A DNA stretch of 36,051 nucleotides from a virus. The stretch spans positions 1 through 36,051 of the IMG/VR virus record IMGVR_UViG_3300046007_014531. The stretch is one strand, 5' to 3'. The stretch's first letter is position 1; every line of letters starts with the position of its first letter. This document shows positions 234 to 18,229 of this stretch, one piece after another. The notes beneath the pieces were generated by a model. That model made no database searches. It was given only the letters and a program-made list of their open reading frames with translations, and was not told the DNA's origin. The translations under genes were made by a program, and so were the position numbers.

Positions 234-1592
234 TTAGGGTTCCCACAATTCATCATTTAAATCAATTATATTAATTGGATTTTTTTTGGAAGCTTTTATT
301 CCATCGCCTTTAACTCCAACAATAATTGTTTGATGAATTTTAATTGCCTTTCTACCCATTTCAAATTGACCTAATCTAAAAACGCTACCGCCAATTGGGC
401 TTTTATATATATATTCATTATAATATTTTAATCCAGCTTCTTCAAATGAACGAATTGTTAATCCACACATATCAAAAATTGATCCGTTACTTTTTCTTAA
501 ATTTCCTACTACAAATATACAAAAACTATCATCTTGCAAATTTTGAACTGATCTTTTTATTATAGAGGAATATAAATCTATAAATTCTTTTTCTGTTTTA
601 TTAGAAATATCAGAATCTAATTCGGAATATTTTTCTAGGTTAAAATATGGTGGACATGTAAAAATTAAATCAATATCTTTTGGTACATCAACAGTATTAG
701 AGTCTTCTAATATCCATTTAGGAAAAAAGTCCTTGTTAAACATATTTAATCTATTTAGATATTTTGCGTTTTCGTTATTTGCGATAACTTGCTCTGGCCT
801 AATTTCGCATCCAATATATTTTCTACCCAATGTGGCCGTAACCACACCACGAACGGGACCACCAGCGAATGGATCATAGACGATAGAATTTTCTGATGAA
901 TGCCAGGAAACCATTAGTTCAGCGATAACCGGATCGAATAGCGAAATGGGATTATTTTTTTCTTGCATTTTTTGGGAAACTGGATCGTTTTGATTGGCGT
1001 AAGAAAATGCTGTTGCATCTCTAGCTATTTCACTTTCTATACCCCAGGCTTTCCACCAATTTTTTCTATTTCGCCAATTGTCATTTGTTGAATCTAAAAT
1101 TGATACTGGGCTATACCCAAATTTTTCAACAATTTTTCCCTTAGATGATTTATATAATTTTCCATCTGATCCTATAACTTTTTCAGACTTTAGCCCAATT
1201 TTTTCTCTTATTTTAGCTACAGTAACATCGGATACACCGAGTCTTTTTGCTATTGAATTATTTGAATCATTCGGACTATCAGATATTTCACCAGCTATAA
1301 CAATTCTTTTTTGCTCAGTGTTTAAATGTCGCCTAGCTACATTTAAAGATCTAGCTTCAGATCTTTTTTCCTGCTCAGTTAAATTTGATCTAACAATTTT
1401 CGGACATTCAATATTATGTTTGTCACAAATCATTTTTCTATGATGTCCGTCAATGATTTCACCATTCTCATCAACTATAATTGGAACTAGAACACCCTTT
1501 TCAATAATGCTATTTTCTAAATTGTCTAACTCAATTTGAGTTAATGGTGGAAGAAGCTGGTATGGTCCATGTGCATTAAATTCAGTTTCCAT
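234..1592 (-). CDS. ParB-like domain / DNA methyltransferase fusion
   Basis: This 452-residue protein is probably a DNA base methyltransferase with its own DNA-recognition module. The N-terminal part (about 10-135) is ParB-like: it has the DGHHR motif at 48-52 and a helix-turn-helix-like segment at 111-135 (SIAKRLGVSDVTVAKIRE). The C-terminal half carries the SAM-binding motif DPFAGG at 240-245 and the catalytic motif TCPPY at 312-316. Motif I precedes motif IV, which suits an amino-methyltransferase (N6-adenine or N4-cytosine) of gamma-like order, though the target base cannot be read from sequence. Its start overlaps the end of the upstream oxygenase gene by 11 bases, so the two are probably translationally coupled. 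ParB-methyltransferase fusions are known in phages. The link to an oxygenase is less familiar. Confidence 0.85.
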   Translation of the reverse strand: METEFNAHGPYQLLPPLTQIELDNLENSIIEKGVLVPIIVDENGEIIDGHHRKMICDKHNIECPKIVRSNLTEQEKRSEARSLNVARRHLNTEQKRIVIAGEISDSPNDSNNSIAKRLGVSDVTVAKIREKIGLKSEKVIGSDGKLYKSSKGKIVEKFGYSPVSILDSTNDNWRNRKNWWKAWGIESEIARDATAFSYANQNDPVSQKMQEKNNPISLFDPVIAELMVSWHSSENSIVYDPFAGGPVRGVVTATLGRKYIGCEIRPEQVIANNENAKYLNRLNMFNKDFFPKWILEDSNTVDVPKDIDLIFTCPPYFNLEKYSELDSDISNKTEKEFIDLYSSIIKRSVQNLQDDSFCIFVVGNLRKSNGSIFDMCGLTIRSFEEAGLKYYNEYIYKSPIGGSVFRLGQFEMGRKAIKIHQTIIVGVKGDGIKASKKNPINIIDLNDELWEP

Positions 1593-2682
1593 TGGATTTC
1601 CTTAAAATATCTATAATTTTTTCATTTACAATAGCGTCAGCAACTAAATGAATTCTTGGAGCATTACCATTATTAAATGCTGCGTGAGGTTTTCTAACAT
1701 CTAGATACCACCAATCATTGATTGACATATGATATTCCGAACATTTTCCATCCAGATTCCACATTTGAAATTTTGAATTTTCATTAGTTTGAATTGGTAA
1801 ATGAAATCTAGCAATTTTACCGATGGAAGCTCCAGCATTTTTATCAGTTATATCTGCGTGTCTAGTTAAAGATCCGTTTGAATCTAATTTCATAAATCTA
1901 ATTCTTTCAAATTCACAATCTAAAAGATTTAATACATTTTTTAAATTTGGAATTTCATAAAATAGTTCAGTATTTTTAACTTCTAAATTTAATTTATTTG
2001 GATTATCTTTTTTCCACTTTTTAGACATTTCTGATGGTTTTTCAATGAAATCTTTTTCACCACCAAAGGATCTCAGTGAAACAGCTTTCCAAGACTTTCC
2101 CTTATTATATGAGGAATAATGATTAATCCATAAGTTTTCTATTATAGAATTCCAATCTGATAAATCAATATCAGTGGATAAATTGGTTTTTATTATACTT
2201 AATTTTTCTATTGGCTCTATAGGATTAATGGTTTCTATATTTAAAGTTGCTATACTTTTTATTTCAGAAGATGCCAATATTTGAGTACCTATAATTTTTA
2301 AGTTTAAATTATTTGCTATATATTTACTTGTAGGATTCTCTGTCCAGAATTTCCATAAAATTTTATCACAATTAAAATTTTTAATAATTTCTATTATAGA
2401 ATTTGGATCGCCAGCAACTCTTTCAATCAATAAAGTGCTCGCTGGGGCGCTAGCTATTTTTATTCCCCTAAAGTCTTTTATTGGCAGTGCAGCTTTCAAT
2501 TTTTTAGCAGCAACAACAGAGCCATTTATTTCATAAATATTTTCTGACTTAATCCAGTCTGCTACTGTACTCTCATTTACTTTTGAAAATAAGCTTAAAT
2601 GATATTCTTTATCATAATTATTAAAAATTGTAGAATATTTTTTTAGTATATTTATATCAATGCCATTTTGCCATTTTTCCAT
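1582..2682 (-). CDS. GNAT-like / aspartyl-asparaginyl-hydroxylase-like 2OG-Fe(II) oxygenase
   Basis: The 366-residue protein has two parts. The C-terminal part (about 165-366) resembles the aspartyl/asparaginyl beta-hydroxylase branch of Fe(II)/2-oxoglutarate oxygenases. The RHAD motif supplies H275 and D277, ARFHLPI follows at 291-297, KPH gives the distal H333, and R343 is placed to bind 2-oxoglutarate. The N-terminal 150 residues are weaker. The stretch around 80-140, with NPTSKYIANN followed by a beta-strand-like segment, looks like the end of a GNAT acyltransferase fold, but no clear acetyl-CoA loop is seen. The gene is first in a two-gene leftward operon with the ParB-methyltransferase. 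The substrate is unknown. Modification of DNA bases or of a host protein are both possible. Confidence 0.7.
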   Translation of the reverse strand: MEKWQNGIDINILKKYSTIFNNYDKEYHLSLFSKVNESTVADWIKSENIYEINGSVVAAKKLKAALPIKDFRGIKIASAPASTLLIERVAGDPNSIIEIIKNFNCDKILWKFWTENPTSKYIANNLNLKIIGTQILASSEIKSIATLNIETINPIEPIEKLSIIKTNLSTDIDLSDWNSIIENLWINHYSSYNKGKSWKAVSLRSFGGEKDFIEKPSEMSKKWKKDNPNKLNLEVKNTELFYEIPNLKNVLNLLDCEFERIRFMKLDSNGSLTRHADITDKNAGASIGKIARFHLPIQTNENSKFQMWNLDGKCSEYHMSINDWWYLDVRKPHAAFNNGNAPRIHLVADAIVNEKIIDILRKSNGN

Positions 2683-2726
2683 AGTCGGATATTTTATATC
2701 TAAATAAGAAAAATTATCTTAATTTA

Positions 2727-2755
2727 CATTGTCAACAATGATACTTTAAAAGTAT
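2727..2755. promoter_or_regulatory. Tandem perfect palindromes in a divergent promoter region
   Basis: The 71-base gap between divergent genes holds two adjacent inverted repeats. One is CATTGT-CA-ACAATG (2727-2740). The other is ATACTTT-A-AAAGTAT (2741-2755), which runs into the ATG of the cytosine methyltransferase at 2754. No Shine-Dalgarno precedes that ATG. TGATACTTT could act as an extended -10, giving a leaderless transcript. The layout suits an operator that controls one or both divergent modification genes. Function is inferred. Confidence 0.5.
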
Positions 2756-3860
2756 GAATTGTTTAAGTTTATTTAGCGGCATCGGTGGTTTCGATTTAGG
2801 TTTCGAACGTGCCGGTATTCAAACGGTTGCCATGTGTGAAGCCGATAGCATTGCACGAAATATTTTACATAAACATTGGCCTGATGTGCCTGTGATAGAA
2901 GATGTGAGTGATTTAGATGGAAGAGAATATCGAACAGTTGAAATTATTTCAGGTGGATTCCCCTGCCAAGACATCTCAGTCGCAGGAAACAGAAAAGGTC
3001 TCGCAGGATCCAAGTCTGGGCTTTGGTGGGAGTTTTATCGAATCGTTTCTGAATCAATGCCAAAATGGGTTGTCATTGAAAACGTCGCTGGACTCATGTC
3101 TTCTGGAGGAAGACGGGACTTGGGTGCCATCATCGGGTCGTTGGGGGAACTCGGGTATTTGGGGGGGTATCGAGTGTTGGACGCTCGGTATTTCGGAGTG
3201 GCCCAGAGACGTAGAAGAATGTTTATTGTCGGAAGTCTTGGAAACAACGGTGGACAGAAAGTATTTTTTGAGTCAGAAGGCTTGCCAGGGGATCTTGAAA
3301 AGAGCAGACAAGAGGGGAAGAAAAATTCCGGAGCAGCTTTACAAAGCTCTTCAGAGAGTAGCAAATTGCTCGCAGAATCAGGAGTAGTTGGCAGTTTAAC
3401 TAAAAGTTTTGGTGGTGCTGGTGCCGACGCTCAACACGCTCAAAATGGTTGGCTGGTTCCGGTTCCTTTTGCGGAGAATCAGCGTTCTGAAGTTATCTAC
3501 ACTGATTTACCAACTTTAAGCACTGGTGGTGGAAAACCGGGGCAGGGTTATCCTGCAATTTTGAGCTATCCTAATAATAGTGGAACTGTGATGGCTAGTT
3601 GGGCGAAAGGGCCTGGGAACGCTCAGGTTGATGAAGGCCATGTTATCCCTTCTTTAGATTCACAGCAGAATTTAGAAGTGAGGAGATTGACTCCTGTTGA
3701 GTGTGAAAGATTGATGGGTTTACCGGATAATTGGACCAAGTTTGGGGCCGACGGTAAAACTATTGCAGATAGTCATCGTTATCGTTTTTGTGGTAATGCT
3801 GTTGTTTCAAATGTTGCTGAGTGGCTGGGTAAGCGAATTGTTGCAGTAGATCAATCGTAA
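2754..3860 (+). CDS. dcm: C5-cytosine DNA methyltransferase
   Basis: This 368-residue enzyme transfers a methyl group from SAM to C5 of cytosine in DNA. Motif I is LFSGIGGFDLGFE (6-18). The catalytic PCQ has its nucleophile at C71, ENV is motif VI at 109-111, and GVAQRRRR is motif VIII at about 148-155. The target-recognition region (about 170-300) is followed by the C-terminal motifs RLTPVECERLMGLPD and FCGNAVV. Length and motif order are normal for a phage orphan methyltransferase, and no partner restriction endonuclease is visible. Roughly residues 55-211 are encoded by DNA that is also open in the +1 frame (see the overlapping gene). The gene has no clear ribosome-binding site and its ATG lies inside a palindrome. 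Confidence 0.95.
   Translation: MNCLSLFSGIGGFDLGFERAGIQTVAMCEADSIARNILHKHWPDVPVIEDVSDLDGREYRTVEIISGGFPCQDISVAGNRKGLAGSKSGLWWEFYRIVSESMPKWVVIENVAGLMSSGGRRDLGAIIGSLGELGYLGGYRVLDARYFGVAQRRRRMFIVGSLGNNGGQKVFFESEGLPGDLEKSRQEGKKNSGAALQSSSESSKLLAESGVVGSLTKSFGGAGADAQHAQNGWLVPVPFAENQRSEVIYTDLPTLSTGGGKPGQGYPAILSYPNNSGTVMASWAKGPGNAQVDEGHVIPSLDSQQNLEVRRLTPVECERLMGLPDNWTKFGADGKTIADSHRYRFCGNAVVSNVAEWLGKRIVAVDQS
2917..3387 (+). CDS. Embedded overlapping gene inside the cytosine methyltransferase
   Basis: A 156-codon open frame, +1 relative to dcm, lies wholly inside it. Its product has features I recognise from phage hypothetical proteins associated with cytosine methyltransferases. There is an early SPAKTSQ segment (about 15-21), a central GLSLKTSLDSC, then LSEVLE and the C-terminal block YFLSQKACQGILKRADKRGR followed by KIPEQLYKAL. 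That last block recurs in phage proteins as a YFLSxxACxGILRRAxxRGK-type motif. Both frames therefore appear to carry recognisable family signatures. The dcm segment concerned also looks less AT-rich than its surroundings, as dual coding would require. No strong ribosome-binding site is seen before the ATG, so the start is uncertain. The function is unknown. Confidence 0.6.
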   Translation: MEENIEQLKLFQVDSPAKTSQSQETEKVSQDPSLGFGGSFIESFLNQCQNGLSLKTSLDSCLLEEDGTWVPSSGRWGNSGIWGGIECWTLGISEWPRDVEECLLSEVLETTVDRKYFLSQKACQGILKRADKRGRKIPEQLYKALQRVANCSQNQE

Positions 3861-4654: not shown

Positions 4655-5452
4655 ATGGGAACTGCACGACAGGCTTTAGATCTTGCGCGTCAACATATCG
4701 GTTATGTTGAGGGTCCGAGAAATAATGAAACAAAATTTGGTGCTTGGAGTGGATATAATTTCCAGCCTTGGTGTGGCAGTTTTGTAAACTGGATTTTCCA
4801 TAACACTGGCACAGGCAATGAGCCTTCAGTTGTGTGGACCCCTGGTGGCGCTGCCGCCTATAAGTCAAAGGGAAGACTTCTGTCCCGAAACAGCGGTGAT
4901 GTTCGCCCTGGCGATGTGATCTTTTTTGACTGGGGTGGAAGTCAGAATACTGGTGCAACCGATCACGTTGGTTTAGTTGAAGCTGTTCTTCCAGATGGCA
5001 GGATTCAAACTATAGAAGGCAACACTTCCCCAACTGATGCTGGTAGCCAAAGTAATGGCGGTGGAGTTTACCGTAGAATTAGACCTAGGGGTGTTGTTGT
5101 TGGTTTTGGTAGACCTAATTATGCTGCCGATAACAATAACCCATATAATCCCAATAGCAATGTTGATTGGGCCAAGCTTCGCAGGTTTGTCGCAGCAGCT
5201 CTTCAGAATGAACTGAAGCCCGTAGGAACGCTTCAAAGAGGTTCTAGGGGTGGACAGGTTACTTCTCTACAGAAGGCTTTAAATCTAATTACAGGAGCTT
5301 CACTGGTTGAGGATGGAGACTTTGGAAATTCCACTCATGCTGCAGTCGTAGCTTTTCAAAAGTTCTTTAAACTTGGAGCAGATGGTGTTGTTGGTCCTAA
5401 GACCAAAGCAATGATTCTTCTTTGTCTAGAGAATATTAAGAATGGAAAATAG
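4655..5452 (+). CDS. Endolysin: CHAP hydrolase plus peptidoglycan-binding domain
   Basis: This 265-residue enzyme should cut host peptidoglycan at lysis. The N-terminal CHAP/NlpC-type domain (about 5-150) has C40 in PWCGSFVNW, H104 in TDHVGLVE and the EGN element at 121-123. A Pro/Asn-rich linker (about 155-172) leads to a peptidoglycan-binding domain (about 195-253) with GSRGGQVTSLQKALN, DGDFGNSTHAAVVAFQ and DGVVGPKTK. There is no signal peptide, so a holin is needed for export. AAAAGGA precedes the ATG. The 3' end overlaps the convergent glycosyltransferase by 17 bases. The architecture points to a Gram-positive host. Confidence 0.92.
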   Translation: MGTARQALDLARQHIGYVEGPRNNETKFGAWSGYNFQPWCGSFVNWIFHNTGTGNEPSVVWTPGGAAAYKSKGRLLSRNSGDVRPGDVIFFDWGGSQNTGATDHVGLVEAVLPDGRIQTIEGNTSPTDAGSQSNGGGVYRRIRPRGVVVGFGRPNYAADNNNPYNPNSNVDWAKLRRFVAAALQNELKPVGTLQRGSRGGQVTSLQKALNLITGASLVEDGDFGNSTHAAVVAFQKFFKLGADGVVGPKTKAMILLCLENIKNGK

Positions 5453-6248
5453 GGGCTGGATCGTAGACCAACTGACCTTCATGGAATTTGTGAAAACCAG
5501 AGAGTGTCATCTGCGGCTCATTTGAAGGATTCGGAAAGTAAAAATTACTCCAAATTTCATTTATACAAGAATCCCCTTCTTTCATCCAAGCATCATAATA
5601 ATTTGTCCAAGCAGTCTTTACCCCAGCAGCTTTCAAAGCCGCTGATCCTTGAGTGATTTTGAATTTTAGATGCTCTAAAGATCTATATGGAAAATGTCTT
5701 ACTTGTAAGACTTCATCATTAATCTTGGCACAATTTCTTGTTGCTGTATGGTTGCCAAAACCAATTTTTAAAGATTTATCATATCTAACAGCGATCTTTG
5801 GTCCGAAAGCTGTAGACCATTTCCAAGGCATTCTTAAAAACGGATTTTTATTAATAGCATCTTCTCCAGTTGCAAAATGATTAAAAACTTTAGCTATGAC
5901 GATATTTTCACTTATCGAAGATAGGGTTTCGTAAATTGTAAATTTTTTATCTTGGTCAGAAATTGTTGAAGACCAAATCTCATCAGCGTCAACTGGAATA
6001 ATCCAGTCAGCTCCATGCTTATCAGCAACAAAATGAGCAAGTTCCGTCATTTTTTCAGACTGCCTGTAAGCAAGCACCGGATCGGTGATTACTTCAGCTC
6101 CATGAGATAATAAAACTTCAGAAGTGTCATCTTCTGATAAATTATTTAAAAATGTTGCACCATGAATACCTTCAGAAAATAAATGATCTAAATTGTGACC
6201 AATTAAATCAGATTCATTTTTTACCATTCCTATAACCCAAATAATCAT
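5436..6248 (-). CDS. GT2-like glycosyltransferase
   Basis: This 270-residue protein begins MIIWVIGMVKNESDLIGHNL, typical of the nucleotide-binding start of GT-A family 2 enzymes of the 'KNE' type. The metal-binding DADE is at 87-90. The C-terminal half has aromatic and His-rich segments (GFGNHTATR, VRHFPYRS), as in related sugar transferases. Donor and acceptor are unknown. It is transcribed leftward directly behind two tRNA genes. Its only Shine-Dalgarno-like sequence (GGGAG, 6253-6257) lies in the 3' acceptor strand of tRNA-Asn. It lies about 14 kb from the main glycan cluster but probably serves the same or a related glycan. Confidence 0.85.
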   Translation of the reverse strand: MIIWVIGMVKNESDLIGHNLDHLFSEGIHGATFLNNLSEDDTSEVLLSHGAEVITDPVLAYRQSEKMTELAHFVADKHGADWIIPVDADEIWSSTISDQDKKFTIYETLSSISENIVIAKVFNHFATGEDAINKNPFLRMPWKWSTAFGPKIAVRYDKSLKIGFGNHTATRNCAKINDEVLQVRHFPYRSLEHLKFKITQGSAALKAAGVKTAWTNYYDAWMKEGDSCINEIWSNFYFPNPSNEPQMTLSGFHKFHEGQLVYDPAPIFHS

Positions 6249-6252
6249 ATCG

Positions 6253-6325
6253 CTCCCAGGGTAGGACTCGAACCTACAACTCGCTGATTAACAGTCAGCT
6301 ACTCTGCCTATTGAGTTACCTGGGA
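6253..6325 (-). tRNA. tRNA-Asn (GTT)
   Basis: The minus strand folds into a complete 73-base cloverleaf. The acceptor arms TCCCAGG/CCTGGGA pair fully, and the D-stem is ACTC/GAGT. The anticodon stem GCTGA/TCAGC encloses the loop CTGTTAA (anticodon GTT), and the T-stem GTAGG/CCTAC encloses TTCGAGT. The discriminator base is G and CCA is not encoded. It reads AAC and AAU codons. It lies 25 bases downstream of tRNA-Tyr and ends 4 bases before the glycosyltransferase start codon. Confidence 0.96.
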
Positions 6326-6350
6326 TTGAATGTCCCGTATTTAAATTTTG

Positions 6351-6433
6351 TGGGAGCGGGAGGATTCGAACCTCCGAAGGCATACACCGGCAGATTTACA
6401 GTCTGCTCCCTTTGGCCGCTCGGGCACACTCCC
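6351..6433 (-). tRNA. tRNA-Tyr (GTA)
   Basis: The minus strand folds into an 83-base class II tRNA. The acceptor arms are GGGAGTG/CGCTCCC with one G-U pair. The anticodon stem GCAGA/TCTGC encloses CTGTAAA (anticodon GTA). It has the long variable arm expected for bacterial tRNA-Tyr and a T-arm with GGTTCGAATCC. The discriminator is A and CCA is not encoded. It reads UAC and UAU. Confidence 0.96.
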
Positions 6434-13225: not shown

Positions 13226-13510
13226 CTAATCTTTCTCCTCTGGATCAATTTCATCAAAATCAGTTGAATGACTTAATAGCATATCACCTTTATAGGATAT
13301 GTTGATTGGTGGAATTAGCATCTCAATGCTTTCTTGAGCGGCTTTGAGAAGTGTAGCAGCAACCCAAGGGGAACAATCCCCTAAATGAACCTCTGGAAGA
13401 ACATCCGGATCATTTTCATATGTGATTGTGATCACATGAATTCCGGTTCCAAGATCAGAAAGATCTTCTATCAGCTGTTCAGACTCGTTTTCGTCTCTAG
13501 GTTCAGTCAT
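13226..13510 (-). CDS. Small conserved-type phage protein
   Basis: This 94-residue acidic protein has a central conserved-looking core: THVITITYENDP-like strands (starting HVITITYEND), VHLGDCSPWVAATLLKAAQE, then IPPINISYKGDML. It resembles small alpha/beta proteins seen in many actinophages; the function is unknown. It follows the metallophosphoesterase with a 4-base ATGA overlap, so the two are co-expressed. Confidence 0.72.
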   Translation of the reverse strand: MTEPRDENESEQLIEDLSDLGTGIHVITITYENDPDVLPEVHLGDCSPWVAATLLKAAQESIEMLIPPINISYKGDMLLSHSTDFDEIDPEEKD

Positions 13511-14847
13511 AGCTTTTCACCGTTCTTATCAACAGATGATTCATATATTGAACCATTGTAGAAGGCACAGCCATCTTCTATAAGAACGGGTTCGACTACA
13601 GCTTTTTGATCGCCTCCGGGTTGATACCATACAACAAAAATTCCTTGCTGCCATTTCTCGGTCTTTTTTGCTGTTTGCTTACCAGAAGAATTTATGCCTG
13701 TTGATGACGAAGGCAGCACACCATCTATTCTAGCAGTTGTTCCCGGGGTTCCGGCAAAAATTGGTCTTGATGATCCTCTTTCTCTAATTCTTGTATACAC
13801 TAATTCTTGTCTATGTGTATGACCGAAAATTGTTGATACACGAGAATCTGCAAGGTACTTAGCTGCAGTTGATCCAGGGGTGCTTGACGCAATTGTTCCA
13901 TGTTCGAATCTTAGATAGTCATTTGCCCAATATTCACCATCTGGATATGCTTCTATTGAAACAATATTATATTCATCAAATCTGCAAAGATTTGCAATAG
14001 ATAAAACTGGTTCTCTTGAATTAGCCTTAGAGATTCCTGATAGGGCCGGAATTTTATCAACAATAGCCTTGTTTAATCTATCATCGTGATTACCACTTAA
14101 AACTACTATTTCAGCATTTGGAGCAAGACTTCTTTGAATGGCTACTTCTGTCCCAAATCTGTCGATCTCCAGCTGAGTGTTCGTCATGTAACCAGGCGCA
14201 GTTCGATGAGAACTGAAAGCGCTGAAATCATGATTATCGCCAAGGATTACGGAAAGGTCAACACCGTAAGCAGTTTCTAGAAACCCAGTTATCTGATGGG
14301 CCACATCTAGAGCGCTCTCATCGTGGGTAGTCGTCAACTCACCATCAACGCCCCTGTGGTAGCCTATTTGTGGGTCTGGTATAACCACACATAGGTTCCA
14401 TCCAGATGGCTTAGAAAGCTTCTTAGCGCCTCTGATAGAGATTTTGAAATCTGTTACAGAAGCCTTTGATGGCAAAGGTGGTGCTGGAATTAAATCAACA
14501 TTCCAAGAAGTTGACTCTTTTTCAACTTGGACATTCTGTCCATCAATTTTTTCCCACCCAGGAAACTTCTTTTTTGTGAAACCCATTTTCACAACAGAAG
14601 CTATTCCAGAGTCCTCTATCTCTTGCAAGGTTTCAGCAATTTCTTCAGCTGACGCATCAGATGAGATACGGATCTTCTCATTCCAGAATCTTTGACCATA
14701 TCTAGCAATGGTTGACTCTTTTATAATTGGAAGAGAATTATCTTGAAGATAAGCAATGATGTCTTTTGCTCGTCCACCCGACCGCCAAATTTCTTCCATT
14801 TCATCTTTGGCTGGATGGTCGGCAACCCCTTTAGGGTGATCGGTCAT
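13507..14847 (-). CDS. HTH plus calcineurin-like metallophosphoesterase
   Basis: This 446-residue protein has an N-terminal helix-turn-helix-like segment (about 15-55; SGGRAKDIIAYLQDN and SLPIIKESTIARYGQRFW). A linker leads to a metallophosphoesterase domain with DPQIGY (158-163), GDNHD (203-207), GNHD (252-255) and GHTH (about 343). The first motif has Gln where most family members have His (DxH). This variant is common in phage relatives. It may hydrolyse a phosphodiester in nucleic acid or a nucleotide. AAAGG lies about 7 bases before the ATG. The gene is transcribed away from the sigma-factor unit, across the RNA-like region. Confidence 0.88.
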   Translation of the reverse strand: MTDHPKGVADHPAKDEMEEIWRSGGRAKDIIAYLQDNSLPIIKESTIARYGQRFWNEKIRISSDASAEEIAETLQEIEDSGIASVVKMGFTKKKFPGWEKIDGQNVQVEKESTSWNVDLIPAPPLPSKASVTDFKISIRGAKKLSKPSGWNLCVVIPDPQIGYHRGVDGELTTTHDESALDVAHQITGFLETAYGVDLSVILGDNHDFSAFSSHRTAPGYMTNTQLEIDRFGTEVAIQRSLAPNAEIVVLSGNHDDRLNKAIVDKIPALSGISKANSREPVLSIANLCRFDEYNIVSIEAYPDGEYWANDYLRFEHGTIASSTPGSTAAKYLADSRVSTIFGHTHRQELVYTRIRERGSSRPIFAGTPGTTARIDGVLPSSSTGINSSGKQTAKKTEKWQQGIFVVWYQPGGDQKAVVEPVLIEDGCAFYNGSIYESSVDKNGEKL

Positions 14848-15019
14848 AAGAAAACCTTTCAGGCGACTGTCGCAACAGTAGTATTAACGGTCGCTTCGTT
14901 ATCTTATTGTCATAAATCACCAAATTTTAATTCTGTTTAGAGGGTTACAAATTCTCCTCAAGTGTCGCATCGACGGCTTCGCGTTTTTACAATTTCAAAA
15001 CATGAGTTACCTTGGATTT
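14848..15019. promoter_or_regulatory. Non-coding upstream segment of metallophosphoesterase
   Basis: This is the first part of a 506-base gene-free interval. It contains the leftward ribosome-binding site (AAAGG on the minus strand near 14860), a GTCG-CAT-CGAC mini-hairpin (around 14964-14974) and a T-run near 14984. Promoters for the leftward gene should lie here, but no clear boxes can be assigned. Confidence 0.4.
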
Positions 15020-15270
15020 CGCTTAGACAACTGAGAGCAGCGTGGGATGCGCCCCAGATAGCGCCACAGGGACTGAAGGTGGCCCAGACTCTTCCGGTGG
15101 GCAATCCGTCATCAATGCCGTCCCGAGCGAACGGGTAGTGAACTGGTCAAGGAACGTCCGGGCAGTTCATCTAAGCAGCTTCCTAGTAGCAATCTGATTC
15201 AGTACGTGAAATTCGTATGTAGATGAAGACACCGACCGTTGCAGTTTTTTACTGCTGAAACAATGTTTCA
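15020..15270 (+). ncRNA. Candidate structured RNA, class unknown
   Basis: This GC-richer island in an AT-rich genome has no open frame and many consecutive hairpins. The stems are 15022-15026/15031-15035, 15043-15046/15053-15056, 15063-15067/15079-15083, 15122-15125/15132-15135, 15139-15145/15163-15169 (7 bp, TGAACTG/CAGTTCA), 15203-15206/15214-15217, 15241-15245/15251-15255 and 15256-15262/15264-15270 (perfect 7 bp). It lies between divergent genes, directly upstream of the sigma factor and ribonucleotide reductase. It could be a free ncRNA or a long 5' leader. A CGGTGggcAATCCG stretch recalls cobalamin riboswitches, but no B12 box follows. The strand is inferred from the downstream gene. 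Confidence 0.45.
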
Positions 15271-15353
15271 CCCAGATGGGGTGGGGTGGAGTCTGCTTAA
15301 ACTGAAGAAAAATTTTGTTTTTATTGAACCATAAAATAAATTAGTGTATTTCT
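15271..15353 (+). promoter_or_regulatory. G-rich then AT-rich leader of sigma-factor gene
   Basis: A G-rich run (15278-15293) gives way to an AT-rich stretch (15310-15352) immediately before the ATG. TTTTGTTTTTATTG and TAAAATAAAT are plausible promoter-like elements. No Shine-Dalgarno is present. A similar AAAATTTTG...TAAAATAA arrangement occurs before the ribonucleotide reductase at about 16160-16179. Confidence 0.35.
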
Positions 15354-16094
15354 ATGGATATAGATACATTATGGATAAAATATAAAGAGGATGGTTCTTC
15401 TTTTCAAGATCTTGTTATTCACTATGAATACCTTGTAAAAAGTACTGCTGCTTCTGTCTCCAAAAATCTGCCAAATCATATTGACTATGATGATTTAGTA
15501 TCTGATGGATATATTGGATTGATGGATGCAATTAAAAAATATGATTCTTCTTATGGTTTTAAATTTGAGACATATGCTTCATTTAGAATACGTGGAGAGA
15601 TCATAGATAAACTTCGTCAGTTTGACTGGGCACCAAGATCTTTGCGTTCTAAAAATAGAGAGATAGATTCTGCAGCAGAGAAATTGTCCATAGAGTTGGG
15701 ACGAGAACCAACTGATACTGAGATAGCTTCACTTCTTGGATGGAAGATATCTGAAATATCTAAAATTAGAGGCTATGGAATCTCTGCTTCAGTTTTCAAT
15801 ATAGATGAAATAGTTAACTCTAGTGGAGATTCATTTAAGCTTTCAGATATTTTAGCAGATGAAAGTTATGATTTTGAAATAATTGATGATGATGATATGT
15901 TGTTTCTTAAGGAAAAAATTCTTGAAGGATTCAAACAACTTAACTCTCAGCAAAAAACCGTATTCTTTCTACATTATATAGAAGGTCTTTCACTTAAAGA
16001 CATTGGCGAAATGCTTGAAGTTACTGAATCAAGAATATGTCAGATACATACTGGTGCGCTTGATTCGGTCTGGAAATTCTGTGTTCCAGATTGA
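15354..16094 (+). CDS. Phage sigma factor, FliA/WhiG (sigma-28) type
   Basis: This 246-residue protein contains sigma region 2 at about 43-100 (YDDLVSDGYIGLMDAIKKYD, FETYASFRIRGEIIDKLR and the hallmark DWAPRSLRSK). It also has a region-3-like segment (about 105-140) and region 4 at about 195-236 (LNSQQKTVFFLHYIEGLSL and a helix-turn-helix). RIRGEIID...DWAPRS is diagnostic for the FliA/WhiG group. It would redirect host RNA polymerase to phage promoters. Its own promoter lies in the RNA-like region. It precedes ribonucleotide reductase by about 100 bases. Confidence 0.93.
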   Translation: MDIDTLWIKYKEDGSSFQDLVIHYEYLVKSTAASVSKNLPNHIDYDDLVSDGYIGLMDAIKKYDSSYGFKFETYASFRIRGEIIDKLRQFDWAPRSLRSKNREIDSAAEKLSIELGREPTDTEIASLLGWKISEISKIRGYGISASVFNIDEIVNSSGDSFKLSDILADESYDFEIIDDDDMLFLKEKILEGFKQLNSQQKTVFFLHYIEGLSLKDIGEMLEVTESRICQIHTGALDSVWKFCVPD

Positions 16095-16198: not shown

Positions 16199-18229
16199 AT
16201 GTCTGAATACCTATCATTTCATCTGTCCGACTCTTTTATTGAAGAGTATGAAAATAAGCAAGTTAATTGGGGATTCGATATTGGTGCAGGCAACTCCCTC
16301 AGTGAACTAACATTTCTTACTAAGTACAGCAGAAAAAAGTCTGATGGAACAAAAGAAAAATGGTATGAAGTTTGCCGTCGATGCATTGAAGGAATGTATT
16401 CAATACTAAAAGATCACTGCGCACATCAGAGAACTCCTTGGAATGAGTTTAAGGCTCAGAAAGCGGCGCAAGATGCTTTCGATAGAATGTTTCATTTTAA
16501 GTGGACACCACCTGGCCGTGGCATGTGGGCTATGGGCACAGAGTATGTTCACCTGAATCAGTCAAATTCTAGCCTAAATAACTGCGCTTTTATTTCCACA
16601 GAGAAGCTTTCTACCCATTCAGCCTATGAAGCGACAATGCCTTTTGCTCGCTTAATGGAAATGTCAATGAATGGTGTTGGCGTCGGGTTCGACACTAAGG
16701 GTGCTGGGAAGCTGACTATCTGGGAGCCAGTTGGCGATCCAGTAGATTTTGTTGTTCCAGACACGAGAGAGGGTTGGGCTGATTCAATATCCGCTCAACT
16801 TGAATCATTCTTTTTCAAGAATCGTCAGCCAATCAATTTTGATTATTCTGAGATTCGCCCATCCGGCGCTCCTCTGAAGTCATTTGGTGGAACAGCTTCA
16901 GGTCCGGGTCCACTCATGGATGTTCATGAATCTATCAACAAGCAATTCTCTGGCAGGCACGGTGAAAAGATCACTAGCAGAGATATTGTTGATATTATGA
17001 ATAAGATCGGTAAGGCTGTTGTTGCTGGTGGGGCAAGAAGGTCTGCTCTCATTGCTCTCGGAGAATCCGATGATGATGATTATGTAAATCTTAAGAACTG
17101 GGAGCTTCCTGAGAACGCTGAAAGAACTGGTCCAGATGGTTGGGCTTGGACAAGCAATAACTCTGTCTTAGTTAACTCTGGAGATATCCTTGATCATCTT
17201 GTTGACAAGATTGCTATCAATGGAGAGCCTGGAGTTATTTGGCTTGATATGATGCGTCGTTTTGGTCGCATGGCTGACGCTGAAAACAATCGTGACTACC
17301 GTGTAACTGGATGTAATCCATGCGCAGAAATTTCTCTTGAGTCACATGAGTTTTGCTGTCTTGTAGAACTTTATCCATCAAAGCATGATTCTTTTGCTGA
17401 TTTTAAGAAGTCAATTAAACATGCTTACATGTACGCTAAGGCTGTTACTTTGATGCCCTCTACTTGGGCTGAAACTAACGAAGTCATTACTCGAAACCGC
17501 CGTATTGGTATTTCGATGACCGGAATTGTTGACTTCATTGAGTCAAGAGGCTGGTCTTCCATGCAAGAGTGGATGGACGAAGGATATCAGTATCTAAACT
17601 TTGTTGATACAAAGTATAGTGAGTGGCTTGGTGTAAGAAATTCAGTTAAGCTTACTACTGTAAAGCCAGCTGGCACAACTTCAATTATTGCTGGCACAAC
17701 TTCTGGTGTTCACTGGCCAACAACTTCAGGGTACTACATTAGAAGAATTAGATTCCATAAGACTGATCCATTAATTCCTCTTCTAAAGAAGGCCGGATAT
17801 CACATTGAGGATGATGTCATGGATTCTAAGACGACTGTTGTTGCATCGTTCCCAACGAAGGGTTTGGATGTTAGATCCGAGCTAGATGTTTCAATTTGGG
17901 AAAAAGCTTCTCTTGCTGCGATGGCTCAGCGTTACTGGGCTGACAACATGGTTTCTGTAACTGTTTCGTTCAAGGAATCTGAGCAGCAGGAAATTTCACC
18001 GTTGCTCAGATCACTTCAGGGTCAGGTTAAGAGCCTGTCATTCCTTCCGATTAGCGAAGAGGGAACAACTTACGCCCAAGCACCATACGAACCAATTTCA
18101 GAAGAGGATGCTTTGAAGATGATGAAGAAAATTAAGCCTCTTGATCTTGATGCAGTTTATTCTTCTGCAGCAGATGGTTCTGGAGAAAAGTTCTGCACAA
18201 CAGATGTTTGCGAGATTGATCTGGGATAA
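16199..18229 (+). CDS. nrdJ: Class II (B12-dependent) ribonucleoside-triphosphate reductase, monomeric
   Basis: This 676-residue enzyme reduces ribonucleotides to deoxyribonucleotides using adenosylcobalamin. It matches the Lactobacillus leichmannii RTPR type. The thiyl-radical cysteine is C375 in NPCAEI (373-378), with E377 as the other catalytic residue. The redox pair is C129 (LNNCAFIS) and C386. The C-terminal shuttle cysteines are C666 and C671 in FCTTDVCEIDLG, with the same 5-residue spacing as RTPR. PPGRGMWAMG, GGARRSALIALG and KPAGTTSIIAGTTSGVH are other signatures. The host must supply or import B12. Its stop overlaps the next start (TAATG). Confidence 0.95.
   Translation: MSEYLSFHLSDSFIEEYENKQVNWGFDIGAGNSLSELTFLTKYSRKKSDGTKEKWYEVCRRCIEGMYSILKDHCAHQRTPWNEFKAQKAAQDAFDRMFHFKWTPPGRGMWAMGTEYVHLNQSNSSLNNCAFISTEKLSTHSAYEATMPFARLMEMSMNGVGVGFDTKGAGKLTIWEPVGDPVDFVVPDTREGWADSISAQLESFFFKNRQPINFDYSEIRPSGAPLKSFGGTASGPGPLMDVHESINKQFSGRHGEKITSRDIVDIMNKIGKAVVAGGARRSALIALGESDDDDYVNLKNWELPENAERTGPDGWAWTSNNSVLVNSGDILDHLVDKIAINGEPGVIWLDMMRRFGRMADAENNRDYRVTGCNPCAEISLESHEFCCLVELYPSKHDSFADFKKSIKHAYMYAKAVTLMPSTWAETNEVITRNRRIGISMTGIVDFIESRGWSSMQEWMDEGYQYLNFVDTKYSEWLGVRNSVKLTTVKPAGTTSIIAGTTSGVHWPTTSGYYIRRIRFHKTDPLIPLLKKAGYHIEDDVMDSKTTVVASFPTKGLDVRSELDVSIWEKASLAAMAQRYWADNMVSVTVSFKESEQQEISPLLRSLQGQVKSLSFLPISEEGTTYAQAPYEPISEEDALKMMKKIKPLDLDAVYSSAADGSGEKFCTTDVCEIDLG

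Follow-up and report, generated by a model that had tools for sequence, protein, structure and literature searches.

Gene context of the junction

The DNA analysed here, called the window throughout, is the whole 36,051-base virus contig of IMG/VR record IMGVR_UViG_3300046007_014531 (positions 1-36,051), which represents a phage of freshwater type. It contains a noncoding gap of 506 bases (14848-15353) between a leftward metallophosphoesterase gene and a rightward gene for a sigma-70 family factor with regions 2, 3 and 4, followed by the gene for a class II (B12-dependent) ribonucleotide reductase (Table 1). A previous sequence-only reading of the window had proposed an unclassified structured RNA of GC-richer, noncoding sequence at 15020-15270 of this gap, between divergent genes and ahead of the sigma factor and the reductase. 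The gene coordinates and the Pfam and phrog matches confirm this placement, and the GC content is indeed raised (52% in 15021-15310 versus 38% in the window). The rightward gene block is uninterrupted from 15354 to the end of the window, and the RNA is its first element on the same strand. Since both the reductase and the phosphoesterase have relatives in phages of Actinomycetia, Mycobacterium, Microbacterium and Clavibacter, the host is likely actinobacterial. A second conserved stretch, 14848-14916, lies just upstream of the phosphoesterase gene (89% identity over 65 bases to the relative L011) and is probably the promoter and leader of that gene.

Table 1. Positions of genes, promoters and helices at the junction (window coordinates unless a contig is named)
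Feature	Position	Strand	Evidence and remarks
Metallophosphoesterase	13507-14847	-	divergent upstream neighbour; phrog_20266
Predicted RNA promoter (-35 TTTACA 14986-14991, 16-base spacer, -10 TACCTT 15008-15013)	14986-15013	+	geometry kept in relatives
Structured noncoding RNA gene	15021-15310 (5' end ~15021; 3' end approximate, 15296-15325)	+	conservation, model R1, no Rfam match
h2 helix GAAGG/TCTTC (tentative)	15075-15079/15090-15094	+	GAGGG/TCCTC in L007: one covarying pair
h3 helix CCCG/CGGG	15122-15125/15159-15162	+	CCCA/TGGG in L012 and L006: one covarying pair
h4 helix TGAACTG/CAGTTCA	15139-15145/15163-15169	+	GAAACTG/CAGTTTC in L009, L012; manual structural alignment
h5 helix TTCATCTA/TAGATGAA, closes a junction	15166-15173/15220-15227	+	U-G in L009/L012; one C-A mismatch in L011
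h7 hairpin GTACG/CGTAT	15202-15206/15214-15218	+	GTGCG/CGCAT, GTGGT/ACCAT, GTGAT/ATCAT in relatives: three covarying pairs
h8 hairpin GCAG/CTGC	15241-15244/15252-15255	+	GTAG/CTAC, ACAG/CTGT in relatives: two covarying pairs
h9 hairpin ACCC/GGGT	15270-15282	+	followed by conserved G-rich GGGGTGG-TCTG 3' region; little variation, weak evidence
Predicted -10 box TAGTGT of leaderless sigma transcript	15342-15347	+	TANNNT conserved near sigma ATG
Sigma-70 family factor	15354-16094	+	downstream neighbour; Pfam Sigma70_r2/r3/r4, phrog_351
Class II (B12-dependent) ribonucleotide reductase	16199-18229	+	Pfam RNR_Alpha, RNR-II_ins_dom (B12-type insertion domain)
Second structured RNA	L182:1961-2300; L183:1991-2345		conserved between both phages

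Conservation of the RNA in related phages

The sigma factor, reductase and phosphoesterase served as queries to gather relatives. Five other contigs span the junction and hold the element (L002/L007, L003/L011, L006, L009 and L012), all with the order metallophosphoesterase, RNA and sigma factor, while a sixth contig (L004/L008) starts just past it. Our covariance model R1 gives one match per record, at 255-278 bits. Among the relatives the RNA core is 81-94% identical in pairwise comparisons. The corresponding values are 71-88% for sigma gene DNA, 69-82% and 77-87% for the phosphoesterase and reductase genes, and only 26-69% for the spacers that flank the RNA. Therefore, the RNA is the slowest-evolving DNA at the locus, and over more than 150 positions it is nearly invariant.

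Open reading frames of 58 and 51 codons overlap the element, so that a small protein gene had to be considered. The frames have no Pfam match, they differ among the relatives, in which single-base insertions and deletions break every frame, and the covariation described below fits an RNA; we practically discount a coding function, and the noncoding character assigned to the segment from the window alone holds.

Four DNA patterns run over viral contigs recovered the same five contigs and chance matches, no match was present in a collection of 50,697 phages or in 399 genomes of one actinomycete class, and plasmids gave a chance match only. Three candidates were rejected as homologues, namely the genome contigs L106 and L107 and the gut phage L180, which share only 17-27 bases with the element; the match in L180 falls inside an open frame of 555 codons. 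Neither model R1 nor nhmmer detected a diverged copy of the window RNA in L010/L031, L014, L032, L182 or L183, and a 9.6-bit match in record G008 was discarded as a copy, being 20 bases long and away from the junction.

Folding and covariation

The proposal of a structured RNA had originally been based on at least eight consecutive perfect or near-perfect stems in the window. This argument does not hold, since such stems are no more frequent than expected by chance: 15010-15320 folds with a minimum free energy of -88.6, versus -94.2 in dinucleotide shuffles (z +1.08), which makes the segment less stable than shuffled sequence, and for 15044-15296 the difference from shuffles is not significant either (z +0.20). 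A list of perfect stems alone is therefore no evidence, and many of these stems are meaningless. The structured RNA itself is nevertheless supported, as the evidence for it is comparative and comes from conservation and covariation in the relatives.

Covariation was assessed in a hand-checked structural alignment of five distinct sequences only, in which the gaps around h4, h7 and h8 were placed manually, and significance was estimated from 200 column shuffles. The pattern of two such local hairpins as h7 and h8 was equalled in none of the 200 shuffles, and a helix with three covarying pairs arose in one of them. By this sequence comparison we regard h7 and h8, and only these, as strongly proven helices. 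The perfect 7-bp stem h4 had been singled out beforehand as the place where compensatory changes would be telling, and such changes are seen in L009 and L012, where G140-C168 is replaced by A-U and T139-A169 by G-C, by way of a U inserted on the 3' side that pairs up with a G-to-A change on the opposite strand. Helix h3 may extend to CCCGAGCG/CGTCCGGG with one mismatch, which we only infer since the sequence of the extension is invariant. As h3 and h4 cross, the core would be pseudoknotted if both form. Helix h2 is tentative because it competes with h1 (15063-15067/15079-15083), whose variation consists of wobble changes only. The window alone carries an insert between h8 and h9 (15256-15270), a perfect hairpin of the form TGAAAC-AAT-GTTTCA.

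The RNAalifold energy of the window family does not differ significantly from column shuffles (z -0.73) because most columns are invariant. For a 3' part of the alignment the minus strand reached z -2.89, which we attribute to the symmetry of the hairpins. The compensatory changes in h7 and h8 would preserve hairpins in single-stranded DNA as well, and the element sits between divergent transcription units, as might a replication origin or a regulatory DNA region. However, the wobble changes are mostly G-U on the plus strand, with one exception (h5 of L011), the promoter spacing on this strand is conserved, and full or near-full consensus promoters flank the RNA found at the same junction in L182 and L183 (see below). 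A DNA element is accordingly an improbable explanation.

Promoters and transcript ends

The putative promoter of the RNA is recognised by its geometry. The -35-like hexamers in five distinct relatives are TTTACA, TTTACG, TTAACA, ATTACA and ATTACA, and in all five a spacer of exactly 16 bases is followed by TANNNT, 6-8 further bases and an invariant GCTTAG, while the spacer sequences differ. A pattern scanner independently detected this promoter in L009 (ATTACA-16-TACAAT). From these sequence features the RNA appears to have its own sigma-70-type promoter, and because the promoter geometry precedes the invariant GCTTAG, the 5' end is predicted at ~15021. The segment, first delimited as 15020-15270, is better set at about 15021 to 15296-15325.

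The sigma gene also shows signs of separate transcription. TANNNT is present at -12 to -7 or -13 to -8 of the sigma ATG in all six homologues, which is the geometry of a leaderless transcript, and the scanner detected TTAACA-16-TAATAT before the sigma gene in L007. No Shine-Dalgarno sequence was found before the sigma gene; this is weak evidence on its own because many genes of the phage lack one (in our scan 18 of the 40 genes of the window phage have it, including the reductase). Together these signals suggest that the sigma gene is transcribed from its own promoter.

These observations bear on an alternative in which the RNA serves the rightward operon as a leader in cis and acts on the polymerase transcribing it, either an antitermination element of the put or EAR type or a riboswitch or attenuator for the sigma factor and the B12-dependent reductase. 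The RNA lies on the same strand directly upstream and heads the unbroken gene block, and the Shine-Dalgarno sequence of the reductase would suit control of this kind. Moreover, no canonical terminator was found between the RNA and the sigma gene, so that the 3' end of the RNA is approximate and read-through into the sigma gene is possible. The leaderless position of the sigma -10 box in six of six homologues speaks against a leader, as does a near-perfect sigma promoter downstream of the RNA slot in L182, L183 and L014. Terminator-like sites, furthermore, are not enriched in the rightward block (14 versus 12.5 expected), and no cobalamin or other riboswitch of Rfam matches. We consider a cis-acting leader the main alternative, although rather unlikely. 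Of the three functions suggested by the sequence-only reading, a metabolite-sensing leader is disfavoured by the -10 box right before the sigma ATG and by the near-perfect downstream promoters of two distant phages, whereas a free noncoding RNA is favoured.

Comparison with known RNA families

A search of the segment against the 4227 families of Rfam gave no match at the gathering score, and up to E 10 only four weak matches, which are snoRNA noise. The homologous loci gave nothing except one chance miRNA match. No Rfam model of 6S RNA, of GOLLD or ROOL, or of a cobalamin or other known riboswitch matched, and resemblances to HDV-like, group I and T-box RNAs that were seen by eye found no Rfam support. 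The RNA thus matches no identified family with confidence. The family is new to Rfam, while its kind, a stand-alone structured phage RNA, is already known.

GOLLD and ROOL are, to our knowledge, the best-known large phage RNAs, and they are without assigned function. Both are represented in Rfam and often lie near tRNA islands, and many GOLLD members exceed 800 nt. They are phage-encoded, complex, pseudoknotted and highly conserved, with no known protein partner (PMC12286853). The window RNA is likewise phage-encoded, structured and highly conserved, with a probable pseudoknot. However, at ~280 nt and with drifting flanks it falls short of the several hundred to >800 nt of these RNAs, and it lies 8.6 kb from the two tRNAs of the window. 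The membership of GOLLD that had been suggested for it therefore finds no support. The two tRNA genes, Asn(GTT) and Tyr(GTA), are adjacent on the minus strand at 6252-6433.

6S RNA consists of one long hairpin with a central bubble. It is comparable in size to the window RNA and also stands alone, and the window RNA adjoins a sigma gene; its helices, in contrast, form several short hairpins and a pseudoknot. Processive antitermination RNAs such as EAR and the putRNA of HK022 act on polymerase in cis. The putRNA, an RNA working alone, does so from the start of a phage transcription unit (PMC9378689). The window RNA also heads such a unit and could act on polymerase, so that by analogy a putRNA-like role is possible. 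It differs in that the downstream gene is apparently transcribed from a separate promoter, and neither a match to putRNA or EAR nor a motif in common with them was found in it.

The long near-invariant core and the pseudoknot would also fit a ribozyme, such as an RNase P-like RNA in reduced or rearranged form. The invariant AAGGAACGTCCGGGC shares 13 of 14 bases with AGGAAAGTCCGGGC, which we take to be an RNase P motif. No other feature of bacterial RNase P RNA that was looked for is present: Rfam gives no RNase P match up to E 10, the ACAGAA...GGCTTAT motif and the other conserved regions of RNase P are absent, and the local similarity to two bacterial RNase P RNAs stays at the level of shuffled sequence (38 and 139 of 200 shuffles were as good). 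RNase P RNA was dropped as a candidate, and a ribozyme appears very improbable.

Different RNAs at the same junction in distant phages

The phages L182 and L183, whose sigma factors are ~36% identical to that of the window, have the same divergent phosphoesterase-sigma junction with ~500 noncoding bases. In both, these contain a second structured RNA (Table 1), for which RNAalifold gives z -4.9 versus column shuffles, with 18 of 61 pairs compensatory and none broken. No sequence similarity to the window family is detectable, and neither Rfam nor the phage collection holds a match. In L182 and L183, TTGACA-17-TATACT precedes the RNA, and TTGACA-17-TATAAT or TTGACT-17-TATAAT follows it before the sigma gene. 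Two RNA families unrelated to each other thus share the order promoter, RNA, promoter, sigma gene, and nothing else argues as strongly for an independent RNA gene rather than a sigma leader.

At the same junction of L014, the segment 2700-3060 folds better than 100 of 100 shuffles (z -2.89) and a perfect promoter precedes the sigma gene. It resembles neither RNA family, and no relatives of the same sequence were found. The L032 junction has no strong fold and no perfect promoter of the kind seen in L014. The junction thus seems to be a place where phage RNAs reside. More speculatively, it may be a slot reserved for a structured RNA, made early, that cooperates with the phage sigma factor in redirecting or blocking host RNA polymerase, with at least two families that share no detectable sequence; we regard this extension as doubtful.

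Proposed mode of action

As expected for a structured phage noncoding RNA gene, the element is noncoding and has a conserved structure with covariation, and a putative promoter of its own can be recognised in the sequence alone. With only a little more confidence than doubt, we propose that it is a stand-alone noncoding phage RNA gene with its own promoter and a folded core, whose product probably acts in trans. The RNA would be read rightwards from the sigma-70-type promoter, starting at ~15021, and its structured body would extend to ~15296. Hairpins h7 and h8 and the h3/h4 pseudoknot, connected by long near-invariant stretches, would form a compact core. The sigma gene would be transcribed from its own promoter, the RNA not being simply its leader.

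Early in infection, the invariant core may bind a conserved host protein or RNA complex in trans. Several reviewed examples of phage-derived small regulatory RNAs pair with mRNAs or act through Hfq (PMC12197685). The window RNA shares with these its phage origin, a predicted promoter of its own and a probable action on host or phage gene expression; in contrast to them, more than 150 of its positions hardly vary, which points to a folded core. Because such long invariant stretches are unexpected for a short-seed antisense RNA, we favour binding of a conserved partner by this core, and the RNA could work as a regulator of ribonucleoprotein type or as a decoy rather than as an antisense RNA. Large structured phage RNAs are few, and the window RNA adds a compact family as well as a second RNA at the same slot elsewhere. 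Both are neighbours of a phage sigma gene and have recognisable promoters on either side, so that expression and pull-down are easy. Should the RNA act on host polymerase, phages would have in it a rare counterpart to regulators of the 6S type.

Other features of the phage genomes

The window reductase has no insert, while those of three relatives, L011 (5120-6200), L032 (near 375-1720) and L015 (near 5101-6065), carry in-frame inserts after the same NPC motif (residue ~375). The insert of L011 matches intein splicing and LAGLIDADG models, and those of L032 and L015 are open reading frames throughout. At the left end of the window, a minus-strand gene (234-1592) encodes a ParB-like/methyltransferase fusion and another gene (2754-3860) a separate DNA methyltransferase. 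In the region 234-3860 the GC content of the minus-strand genes is very low (25-37%), in contrast to that of the methyltransferase (45-48%), which suggests a recent acquisition.
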